DNA of 45,213 nucleotides from Candidatus Eremiobacter antarcticus (GTDB lineage Bacteria; Vulcanimicrobiota; Vulcanimicrobiia; Eremiobacterales; Eremiobacteraceae): contig QHBK01000009.1 in assembly GCA_003244105.1 (NCBI GenBank), positions 1 through 45,213 of the forward strand. The letters are read 5' to 3'. The translations under genes were made by a program, and so were the position numbers. A model generated the notes under the pieces. It was not told the origin of the DNA. It did not search any database and saw only the letters and a list, made by a program, of their open reading frames with translations. The stretch's first letter is position 1; every line of letters begins with the position of its first letter. This document shows positions 26,420 to 29,762 of the stretch, piece by piece.

Positions 26420-28015
26420 ATGGCGTTGCTTGCCGGCGAATCGACAGGTCTCGAGCGGTTTGGTTTCGGTCCGTCCGCACAGGTCAGGCGCAACCTTGCG
26501 ACCGCTACCCTGTTCGAAGAGTGCATCCGCAGAGAAGAAGGCTGGGCCGCGGCGCACGGGCCTCTGGTCGTGCGAACGGGCAAACATACCGGACGCTCGC
26601 CGCAAGACAAGTTCTTCGTCGAGGAGCCGGGCAGTCAAGCGCACATCGACTGGGGAAAAGCCAACAAGCCGTTTGACCCGGAGAAGTTCTCGGCGCTCTT
26701 GGCGCGCGTCGATGCGTATCTGAGCGACAAGGAAGTCTTCGCTTTGGACGCTTTCGCGGGAGCGGATCCGAAGTACCGCGTTCCTATTCGCGTGGTCACC
26801 CAACTGGCTTGGCACAATCTTTTCAGCCGCAACCTCTTCATCCCCGCGACTGGTCAGGACCTGCGCGGCTTCGTCCCCGAGTTCGCGGTAGTGGATGCCT
26901 GCAATTTTCTTGCCGACCCTGCTCGCGACGGCACTCGCTCGGAGACCTTCGTGATCATCGACTTCGGCCGACGCCTCGTGCTCATCGGCGGCACCACGTA
27001 CGCGGGCGAAATCAAAAAATCGGTCTTCACGATCATGAATTATTTGCTGCCCTTGCGCGATGTCATGCCGATGCACTGTTCGGCGAACGTGGGGGTGGGC
27101 GGAGATGTCGCTGTCTTCTTCGGGCTCTCGGGGACCGGAAAGACGACCTTGTCGGCAGACCCCAACCGCGCCCTGATCGGCGATGACGAACACGGCTGGA
27201 GCGACCGCGGAATCTTCAACTTCGAAGGCGGTTGCTACGCAAAGGCCATCCACTTGTCCGCCGATCTGGAGCCGCAGATCTTCCCGACCACGCGGACGTT
27301 CGGGACCGTGCTGGAAAACGTCGTCATGGACCCGGTCACCCGCGAGCTCGATCTCGACGACGACTCGCTGACCGAGAACACTCGTGCCGCGTATCCATTG
27401 AGTTCGGTGCCGAACACCGTGCCCCACGGTGTCGCGGGCCATCCGCGTCACATCGTCATGCTGACCTGCGATGCTTTCGGGGTGCTGCCGCCTATCGCGC
27501 GCATGACGCCGGCCCAGGCCATGTACCACTTCTTGTCAGGCTATACCGCCAAGGTGGCCGGCACTGAGAAGGGCGTCACCGAGCCGCAGACGACGTTCTC
27601 CCATTGCTTCGGCGCGCCGTTCATGGTGCACCAGCCGACGGAGTATGCCAAGATGCTCGGGGCGAGGATCGCGCGCCACGAGGTCGACTGCTGGCTGGTC
27701 AACACCGGCTGGAGCGGCGGACCGTATGGAGTTGGCAGGCGCATCAAGCTCCCATACACTCGCGCGATGGTGAACGCTGCGCTCTCGGGCGCCTTGGACG
27801 ATGCGCGCTTGACTGCAGACCCGATTTTCAAAATCAGCGTTCCCGACCGCGTGCCGGGCGTCCCGAGCGAGGTGCTCAACGCCCGAGACACGTGGACCAG
27901 CGGCGAAGCGTACGACGCGAAAGCGCGCCAGCTGGCGCAGAAGTTCGCGGAGAACTTCGAGAAGTTCGCGGCGAGTGCGTCGCCCGAGGTCAAAGCCGCC
28001 GCGCCCACGGTCTGA
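26420..28015 (+). CDS. pckA: phosphoenolpyruvate carboxykinase (ATP)
   Basis: Converts oxaloacetate and ATP to phosphoenolpyruvate, the first committed step of gluconeogenesis. 531 residues, the usual size of the ATP-dependent enzyme. The N-terminal RTGKHTGRSPQDKFFVEEP is typical of this class. The kinase P-loop GLSGTGKTTLS is at about residues 235-245, followed by the metal and ATP block LIGDDEHGWSDRGIFNFEGG. The later ENTRAAYPL and TAKVAGTEKGVTEP segments are conserved. ATG at 26420 has GGGGAG about twelve bases upstream, a rather long spacing. The yvcK product encoded about 23 kb away is also linked to gluconeogenic growth. Confidence 0.96.
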   Translation: MALLAGESTGLERFGFGPSAQVRRNLATATLFEECIRREEGWAAAHGPLVVRTGKHTGRSPQDKFFVEEPGSQAHIDWGKANKPFDPEKFSALLARVDAYLSDKEVFALDAFAGADPKYRVPIRVVTQLAWHNLFSRNLFIPATGQDLRGFVPEFAVVDACNFLADPARDGTRSETFVIIDFGRRLVLIGGTTYAGEIKKSVFTIMNYLLPLRDVMPMHCSANVGVGGDVAVFFGLSGTGKTTLSADPNRALIGDDEHGWSDRGIFNFEGGCYAKAIHLSADLEPQIFPTTRTFGTVLENVVMDPVTRELDLDDDSLTENTRAAYPLSSVPNTVPHGVAGHPRHIVMLTCDAFGVLPPIARMTPAQAMYHFLSGYTAKVAGTEKGVTEPQTTFSHCFGAPFMVHQPTEYAKMLGARIARHEVDCWLVNTGWSGGPYGVGRRIKLPYTRAMVNAALSGALDDARLTADPIFKISVPDRVPGVPSEVLNARDTWTSGEAYDAKARQLAQKFAENFEKFAASASPEVKAAAPTV

Positions 28016-28021
28016 AGTCGG

Positions 28022-28050
28022 GCCGCCCGCAAGCCGTGCTGCCGGGCGGC
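28022..28050 (+). terminator. GC-rich hairpin after pckA
   Basis: Perfect eight-base-pair stem GCCGCCCG/CGGGCGGC with a 13-base loop, beginning six bases after the pckA stop. No T-run follows, so it may be a weak or factor-assisted terminator or a 3' stabilising structure. It separates pckA from the MobB-like gene. Confidence 0.4.
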
Positions 28051-28089
28051 GGCACTTAGGCGACAGTACCCGGCCAGGTCTGACGCGAA

Positions 28090-28836
28090 GTGACTCCCGT
28101 GGAAATCCTGATCGTCGGCGGCCCTCACTCGGGCGTCGGCAAGACACTTGCGTCCGAGGTCGCGCTGCGGGCGCTTTCCGGCCGCAGCTTCGGCGCCATA
28201 AAGCTCACCGTCGCCGACGGCGAGCGGGACCCTCAGCACGACCACGGCGCATCTGCCCTGGCGGTCGCCGATGCTGCCGGCATCTGCGGCCGAGGCGCGT
28301 CCTGCGGCGTCTGCGAAACGGTATCGACGCGCATACCCAGCCGGCTCATCACAACTCTTCGCGCCATCCGCAAGCCCAATACCGACACGTGGCGGCTCAG
28401 CGAGGCGGGCGCCCTGGCCGTGGCCTGGGTCATCGCCTTGCGGGAAGGCGCGCCCCAAGCCGTCGACGCGGCGCTGCGCTATCTGGCCGACCACGGCGCC
28501 CGCGGAGCGGTGATCGAAGGAACGACCGCGCTCGAATGGATGAACCCGAAGGCGTCGGTGATGGTCGCAAGTTCGCCGGGAAAGCGCTGGAAGGACGTGG
28601 CGGTCCGCTACGTCGGGCGGTGCGACATCGTGCTGTGCAACCGCGTGCCGCACGTCGTCGGTGACGTCCCTCCGCCGGAACAGTTCTTCGCCGCCGAGCC
28701 GCTGTCGTGCGATCTCGCCTCGCCGGCGGATCCGGGCACGCGCGCCTACATCGGTCGGGTGCGTGACCTCATGAGCTATGGAGCTGAGGCAGGCTTTGAA
28801 GGCCAACGAGGAACGGGCGGCGCGTTGACGGCGTGA
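28090..28836 (+). CDS. MobB-like P-loop nucleotide-binding protein with a cysteine cluster
   Basis: 248 residues. The P-loop is IVGGPHSGVGKTLASE (about 8-23). FGAIKLTVADG and the later DTWRLSEAGALA (99-110) resemble the MobB pattern (a KHT-type strand and a DSxRxxxAGA segment), so it belongs to or near the SIMIBI group. Between them is CGRGASCGVC, with Cys66, Cys72 and Cys75 (C-x5-C-x2-C), not expected in MobB. EGTTALEWMNPKAS suggests a further conserved site. No molybdenum cofactor gene is nearby. It starts at GTG (28090; another GTG at 28099). Its last 61 bases overlap the convergent dehydrogenase. Function not assigned. Confidence 0.7.
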   Translation: MTPVEILIVGGPHSGVGKTLASEVALRALSGRSFGAIKLTVADGERDPQHDHGASALAVADAAGICGRGASCGVCETVSTRIPSRLITTLRAIRKPNTDTWRLSEAGALAVAWVIALREGAPQAVDAALRYLADHGARGAVIEGTTALEWMNPKASVMVASSPGKRWKDVAVRYVGRCDIVLCNRVPHVVGDVPPPEQFFAAEPLSCDLASPADPGTRAYIGRVRDLMSYGAEAGFEGQRGTGGALTA

Positions 28837-29762
28837 CGGGGCGGTTCCCCGATGGCGAAGCGGTAGAGGTTGGCCGCGACAGCATGCGCGATGCCGCGAT
28901 ACGACTCGTCGGTGACTCCCGCGATGTGGGGCGTGGCGATCACGTTGTGATGGAACATGGCGTGCTGCGGATCGACCGGCTCTTGCGAAAAGACGTCCAG
29001 GCCTGCGCCGCCGATGCGTCCCGAAGCGAGCGCCTCAAGCAACGCGTCTGAGTCGACGAGCCCGCCGCGCGCCACGTTCACCAGAATCGCGCCGCGCTTC
29101 ATAGCGTCGAAAGCTCCGCGGTCGATGAGATTGCGGTTCGAGTCTTCCAGGCGCACGCACACGATGACGAAGTCCGCCTCGCGCAAGGCGTCATGCAGCC
29201 GGTCCGGTCCGAGGATCTTCATGGCCGGCACGTCGGGGGGGCTCCCTTTTGTTGGGTTCGCCCGGACACCGCACAGGCGCATGCCGAACGCGTGCAGCCG
29301 GCGCGCGAGCGCTGCTCCAACATCTCCCAGGCCGACGATGGCGGCCGTTTTATGCAGCAACGCCTTGCCGGCCGGCTGGCCGGTGATTTTTTGGTCGAGC
29401 ATGGCTTGCGCCTCACGCATGCGCCGCGCGAGCGCGAGCATAAGGAGGATGGCATGCTCCGCCACTGATTCGGCGTTGCCAGTGCCGCCGCTGGGGATGC
29501 GCGCAACCCACACTCCCGCAGCCGTCGCCGCCGGCACGTCGACGGTTTCTAAGCCTACGCCGAACTGCTGGATGAGTCCGAAGGAGCCGCGGTTGATGAC
29601 GTCGCTCGAGATGACGGAGCCGTACGGCACGATGACGTCAACGTCACTCAGATTGGCAGCGACTGCGTCTTTCGCGCATGTGGCGACGTGCCAGGCCGGA
29701 ATCAGCGGCGCAAGCTGCGTGCGGCTCTCCGCATAGCCGATGTCGCAGAAAAGTATCTTCAT
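28776..29762 (-). CDS. D-isomer specific 2-hydroxyacid dehydrogenase
   Basis: 328-residue NAD-dependent dehydrogenase. The Rossmann motif is IVGLGDVGAALARRL, the catalytic Arg lies in VNVARGGLVDSDAL, the Glu in DVFSQEPVD and the His in ATPHIAGVTDES, so all active residues are present. The sequence differs clearly from the first dehydrogenase in the window (4240-5238), so it is not a recent duplicate. It could act on 3-phosphoglycerate, glyoxylate or a branched 2-keto acid; there is no C-terminal ACT domain, which argues against a long-form SerA. Its 3' end overlaps the convergent MobB-like gene. Confidence 0.88.
   Translation of the reverse strand: MKILFCDIGYAESRTQLAPLIPAWHVATCAKDAVAANLSDVDVIVPYGSVISSDVINRGSFGLIQQFGVGLETVDVPAATAAGVWVARIPSGGTGNAESVAEHAILLMLALARRMREAQAMLDQKITGQPAGKALLHKTAAIVGLGDVGAALARRLHAFGMRLCGVRANPTKGSPPDVPAMKILGPDRLHDALREADFVIVCVRLEDSNRNLIDRGAFDAMKRGAILVNVARGGLVDSDALLEALASGRIGGAGLDVFSQEPVDPQHAMFHHNVIATPHIAGVTDESYRGIAHAVAANLYRFAIGEPPRHAVNAPPVPRWPSKPASAP

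Follow-up and report, generated by a model that had tools for sequence, protein, structure and literature searches.

The window analyzed here, the whole 45,213-nucleotide stretch of DNA from Candidatus Eremiobacter antarcticus (assembly GCA_003244105.1, contig QHBK01000009.1, positions 1 to 45,213), encodes a P-loop protein that resembles MobB and carries a compact set of three cysteines. What might a protein of this kind do beside pckA, and what might its cysteines be for? The answer we favor, and consider reasonably probable, is that it serves Mo/W-bis-MGD synthesis as a divergent, nucleotide-binding adaptor of the MobB type, and that its three-cysteine (Cys3) loop probably binds a metal or an Fe-S cluster.

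The reading frame and its similarity to MobB

The open reading frame occupies 28090..28836 on the forward strand and encodes 248 residues from a GTG at 28090. A second GTG in the same frame, at 28099, is a better match in alignment to the start methionine of its homologs, so the protein probably begins there, with 245 residues. Its landmarks, all on the same strand, are the P-loop GGPHSGVGKT (residues 10-19, 28117..28146; Pro12 stands at the first consensus position), a His50-Asp51 pair (28237..28242), the Cys3 loop CGRGASCGVC (residues 66-75, 28285..28314; C66, C72, and C75), the MobB-like motif DTWRLSEAGAL (residues 99-109, 28384..28416), recognized in sequence and profile, and the Walker-B-like strand VIEGT (residues 141-145, 28510..28524), assigned from conservation and predicted structure. 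The original prediction set CGRGASCGVC between a strand and the DT motif, and this is exact: codons 66-75, spaced C-x5-C-x2-C (as C-GRGAS-C-GV-C), follow strand 2 and precede the DT-AGA helix. Antisense to the end of pckA and to the focal gene there is also a 421-residue open frame on the reverse strand (27541-28806), which has the look of an artifact of high GC content.

The MobB-like frame that had been claimed is present in its motifs (P-loop, IKLT strand, DTWRLSEAGA) but weak as overall similarity: MobB was the sole Pfam model returned for the focal protein, at 13.9 bits against a cutoff of 26.6, and NCBIfam returned no model. Among the twelve members from the focal family, f1, MobB (PF03205) is the most frequent Pfam match, found in eleven with a best E-value of 4.3e-5, followed by DUF2292 (seven members, best E-value 0.0063); TIGR00176 matches seven of the twelve (best E-value 0.0023), and NqrF gives a weak NCBIfam match (E-value 0.22) in one. 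Comparison by hhalign with classical MobB, represented by three sequences, gave a probability of 96.7 for the wide set of Cys-loop proteins and 2.9 for the f1 profile alone. Sequence searches of the PDB returned matches that look unrelated, and nothing else. Profile searches thus found no strong match to a characterized family, and the proposal of a new nucleotide-binding family holds in the form of a distinct P-loop subfamily, marked by a conserved Cys3 loop, for which neither Pfam nor NCBIfam has a model.

MobB proper (PF03205/TIGR00176), an adaptor in the biosynthesis of molybdopterin-guanine dinucleotide, shares with the focal protein an N-terminal P-loop, the strand-2 lysine, the DT..AGA helix, and the V(I)EG strand. 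Unlike it, the three MobB references (one of them, G258, chosen by sequence reading instead of a family search) have K-H-x-x-H after strand 2, where all 12 f1 members have K-L-T-V-A-D. From the strand-2 lysine to the Asp of the DT pair there are 61 residues in the focal protein versus 14 in the MobB reference L043, and the extra segment contains the Cys3 loop.

Conservation within the focal family

In a search of 61 genomes, that of the window included, the protein occurred in 12, all from f1, the Eremiobacterota family to which the window belongs (12 of its 14 genomes), with the 11 homologs 61-70% identical to the window protein. C66, C72, and C75 are invariant in all twelve, as are H50, D51, C207, and the P-loop residues G10, G11, G17, K18, and T19; the cysteines are kept even in three members that lack 11 residues immediately ahead of the loop. 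Conservation of the Cys loop in f1 exceeds chance. The f1 alignment, used as a query against genome contigs, found six family members and no others, while the single focal protein scanned against the same contigs found no match. In G007 the P-loop reads GGPHSYVGKT (L006:1501-2193, forward strand), with Tyr replacing the usual Gly15.

Relatives and the loop beyond the family

The f1 profile, run over 149 genomes, reached two distant relatives: G121, elsewhere in the phylum, and G110, from family f2. With these two added, the profile matched 36 of 388 genomes, now beyond the phylum, and all 24 matches from outside the family were examined; a profile of the loop-bearing rows matched 35 of 386, and of its 20 new genomes eight were taken in and twelve weaker ones (E-values 2e-6 to 8.7e-4) left out. 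No relatives were found on plasmids searched with the G121 protein or on viral contigs searched with alignment A2. The resulting alignment has 46 rows: 12 focal proteins, ten others with the full loop, G186, 20 relatives lacking the loop, and the three MobB references.

Ten relatives outside f1 carry the full C-x5/6-C-x2-C, as CPRGGxGCG[VA]C in eight, CPRQNPCGAC in G121, and CPRPDPCGVC in G504; G186, with Tyr at the middle cysteine, is counted as the eleventh loop-bearing relative. These eleven come from eight other families, four of them from f50. Absence of the cysteines in homologs, which would speak against the original proposal, gave a mixed result: all twelve close members keep them, whereas the loop is missing from 20 of the 31 wider relatives.

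In a tree built with the loop columns omitted (and without G215), 42 rows, the focal group among them, separate from the three MobB references with support of 98/98, and f1 forms one clade (100/100). The fused cysteine-bearing proteins described below group with loop-less G296 and G292 and with unfused G199 and, less firmly, with loop-less G251; deep branches are unresolved. The tree thus implies repeated loss, or repeated gain, of the loop.

The loop-bearing lineages have just three cysteines in common, and no fourth conserved cysteine ligand runs across them, C207 being invariant only in the focal twelve, where it sits in the protein's own C-terminal extension. His50 and C207 were considered as universal fourth ligands and rejected, since neither is retained across other lineages; HDHG occurs outside f1 in G121 alone. 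The [2Fe-2S] ferredoxin loops of the NqrF type, which are of the C-x5-C-x2-C kind, are similar in appearance to the focal loop, in keeping with the one weak NqrF match, but differ in that a fourth cysteine is not common to the lineages here, and the fold is different. This pattern, together with the sister lineages that have no loop, is what would be expected if the cysteines formed a redox switch or a structural disulfide and no metal site at all. We regard that explanation as rather doubtful, however, because a C-x2-C plus a third cysteine recurs at near-fixed spacing in 22 of the 46 aligned rows and across eight families, and ligand sets for metals or Fe-S clusters usually look like this.

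Fusion to MobA and cofactor gene neighborhoods

Seven of the eleven loop-bearing relatives (G327, G388, G182, G389, G203, G357, and G436) have a C-terminal MobA domain, with Pfam NTP_transf_3 E-values of 3e-37 to 2.4e-34 in the four fusions tested. Like the focal protein, the fused MobB-like/MobA proteins, found at Mo/W or formate dehydrogenase loci, combine a P-loop domain with the Cys loop; unlike it, they carry MobA at the C-terminus, have C-x6 in place of C-x5, and lack HDHG and its His-Asp pair; the focal protein has instead a C-terminal extension of its own, which includes the invariant C207.

A tblastn search with 14 proteins, in which a relative's own fused MobA was not counted, placed genes for Mo/W-cofactor synthesis (moeA, moaA, moaC, mog), tungstate transport, or formate dehydrogenase near ten of the eleven loop-bearing relatives, although for G121 this amounts to a 50-residue end of a formate dehydrogenase about 8 kb away. 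The same search found such genes near 8 of 20 loop-less relatives and at none of the 12 f1 loci within the stretches obtained. Those stretches were unequal, 4.8 to 20 kb each with 45 kb for the window, and four of the eleven loop-bearing relatives come from f50, so the counts are not independent.

Near the G327 gene lie a ModE-like protein, WtpA and MoaC (both over their equivalog cutoffs), a MoeA-like protein, a MOSC-Mog protein, and a MoaA-type protein just below its cutoff; near G186 are a formate dehydrogenase piece and MobA-like, MogA-type, and TupA-like proteins, the last below cutoff. NCBIfam names the formate dehydrogenase alpha subunits encoded beside the G504, G357, and G436 genes, the first two over equivalog cutoffs and the third, scored from a partial sequence, just under. 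Classical MobB is likewise linked to MobA, MoeA, and bis-MGD enzymes, a likeness seen among the loop-bearing relatives and at none of the 12 f1 loci. The expectation that missing neighbors speak against a molybdenum cofactor link is not supported by the context of the homologs, which favors such a link.

Several other neighborhoods were seen in passing. In G251 (L099:7203-8159, reverse strand) a loop-less MobB-like domain is apparently fused to a ModE-like C-terminal part and adjoins matches to moeA, moaA, moaC, and mog. The loop-less relative in G110 (L055:5780-8843, forward strand) lies between moeA and a gene whose large-subunit product matches arsenite oxidase (TIGR02693, 901 bits); relatives in G024 and G112 (L083, L084) lie near narG. 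The loop gene of G121 (L054:5046-9015, forward strand) directly follows genes that read as GatE- and GatD-like, an archaeal-type amidotransferase and odd company for a bacterial gene. Loop-less relatives at L088 and L171 and at L097, L100, and L172 have no cofactor neighbors and sit beside DNA topoisomerase-like genes, of two kinds in two genome groups.

A tungstate-type transporter gene lies near seven of the eleven loop-bearing relatives, WtpA-like in six and TupA-like in one, which raises the thought that a metal or Fe-S cluster bound by the Cys3 loop at the nucleotide switch could act as a gate, rendering cofactor assembly selective for tungsten or dependent on redox state, in what would be a metal-bearing MobB. 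Two of the eleven genomes (G199 and G504) also keep a classical MobB over cutoff, as would fit a second, specialized branch, and in these two the roles of the proteins may differ. A TupA gene is found near loop-less G242 too, which counts against the gate, and we think it unlikely.

The cofactor pathway in the host genomes

Can the genomes that encode the focal protein be expected to make the cofactor? MoaA over cutoff, MoCoBD_2, and Molydop_binding were each found in all 14 f1 genomes; some Molydop_binding matches read as NuoG-like (L179, L183), so these alone do not prove an MGD enzyme in each genome. MobB over cutoff was found in none of the 14, with weak matches in three, and nine of the eleven loop-bearing genomes outside f1 have no MobB match at an E-value of 0.001 or better. 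In a search for the MobA family none of the 25 genomes reached the curated cutoff, but only one of 14 control genomes did so, and the focal family is thus still likely to have a true MobA.

The idea that the focal gene and MGD enzymes (NuoG aside) were lost together in G006 was rejected on the content of contig C160, where one finds the terminal part of a gene for a molybdopterin enzyme and, by our reading, a formate dehydrogenase iron-sulfur subunit; G006 thus has an apparent formate dehydrogenase operon fragment with no focal gene, and the losses are not coupled. In the window's own genome (G000), two formate dehydrogenase alpha genes are each interrupted by an in-frame TGA (L175 near 6417, forward strand; L176 near 9715, reverse strand), at a site that is often selenocysteine in this enzyme class. 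These are probably selenocysteine enzymes, in which case this member of the Eremiobacterota would make selenoproteins; selenocysteine formate dehydrogenases carry bis-MGD.

Predicted fold

The AlphaFold2 model of the focal protein (mean pLDDT 80.2, pTM 0.80) predicts a SIMIBI P-loop NTPase fold. The Cys loop is modeled poorly (pLDDT below 50 at residues 63-73); lying between strand 2 (34-42) and helix 99-105, it is read as occupying the switch-I position. Foldseek gave no match in the PDB at an E-value of 0.001 or better, its top rows being nitrogenase Fe proteins, whose query TM stayed under 0.4, and HypB standing at rank 15 with TM 0.49. A second structural comparison was headed by cyclic 2,3-diphosphoglycerate synthetase (Z 13.4, rmsd 4.0, 181 aligned), followed closely by HypB with zinc (Z 13.2, rmsd 3.7, 172 aligned) and UreG with nickel (Z 13.1, rmsd 3.6, 167 aligned); the MobB homolog 1xjc came at rank 47 (Z 9.8, rmsd 3.7, 129 of 145 residues). 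Because rows within 1 Z are tied, this ranking does not decide between families.

HypB and UreG, the SIMIBI Ni/Zn chaperones, stand above 1xjc, and their metal-binding Cys and His residues lie past strand 2 and ahead of the Walker-B strand, the place that topology gives to the focal loop. The protein might accordingly be a SIMIBI metallochaperone for another metal center, inserting Ni or Zn as they do, with its MobB likeness a matter of shared fold, and the loop-less G296 gene does adjoin genes that read as hydrogenase-like. Yet no HypB, UreG, or CobW model in Pfam or NCBIfam was returned for the focal protein up to an E-value of 10 (HMMER filters on), and the loop-bearing relatives lie near Mo/W genes in a search whose queries were Mo/W-cofactor, transport, and MGD-enzyme proteins. 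We judge this alternative quite unlikely.

The locus beside pckA

As had been stated, the gene lies next to pckA, which is directly upstream (26420..28015, forward strand); a functional link is not considered likely. A gene read as D-2-hydroxyacid dehydrogenase-like (28776..29762, reverse strand) converges on the focal gene and overlaps its 3' end by 61 bp. The absence of molybdenum cofactor genes nearby was also borne out: the 14 Mo/W-cofactor, transport, and MGD-enzyme queries gave no tblastn match at an E-value of 1e-8 or better in the whole 45-kb window. The position between pckA and the 2-hydroxyacid dehydrogenase is kept, as part of a block that extends from dnaE as far as rplQ-rpoA, with pckA less than 1.5 kb away in all ten f1 loci whose contig reaches that far (the contigs of G005 and G003 end before it). 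In G008 (L018), however, the orientation of the focal gene relative to pckA is reversed, and in G006 the gene is gone, leaving pckA intact and abutting the dehydrogenase, so co-transcription with pckA is not required, and the adjacency was dropped as functional evidence. G001 also lacks the focal gene, but its pckA match is merely 19 bits, and the absent locus may be an assembly gap. That the f1 protein has left the cofactor pathway for another role tied to this stable place, as the constant nearness of pckA and the lack of cofactor genes at all 12 loci might suggest, is decidedly improbable given that inversion and deletion, the co-inheritance of the dnaE-pckA-rplQ block, and the retention of loop and motifs in f1.

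Proposed role of the Cys3-loop subfamily

We return to the reading of the focal protein as a MobB-like adaptor. It would bind nucleotide through its P-loop and act with MobA and MoeA, the partners suggested by the fusions and operons of its relatives, in the late step that yields bis-MGD, the form of the cofactor used by formate dehydrogenases and their kin. The Cys3 loop at switch I would bind a metal ion or an Fe-S cluster, and its occupancy or redox state may be coupled to the nucleotide cycle; metal or Fe-S binding is the most likely function because the loop occupies the SIMIBI switch-I position. What the comparisons show is the conservation of the loop and, for its loop-bearing relatives, fusion and context. 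We infer from these a cofactor role for the unlinked focal gene, and we likewise infer that the focal protein binds nucleotide, that it binds some kind of metal, and that the two are coupled. With 8 of the 20 loop-less sisters near molybdenum genes, the loop is not needed for a cofactor role, and all 20 sisters and the unlinked f1 location count against an obligatory function for it.

Literature backing for the pathway role comes from MobB proper. In a 2026 report (PMC13197769), mobB of Methylorubrum extorquens is required for a tungsten formate dehydrogenase and dispensable for molybdenum formate dehydrogenases, the mechanism being left unresolved there, and a two-hybrid assay shows its MobB to interact with MoeA1. 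No cysteine-bearing MobB is described in the titles and abstract openings of the open-access papers that the literature searches listed, which is weak evidence of absence.

The focal protein is thus an uncharacterized relative of MobB. The function of MobB is unsettled, and the subfamily offers a direct handle on it: a conserved Cys3 loop that sister proteins dispense with, carried by proteins that in several lineages are fused to MobA and have tungstate transporter genes close by. If the loop is a metal site, as it may be, it would belong to a step of cofactor synthesis that is poorly understood.
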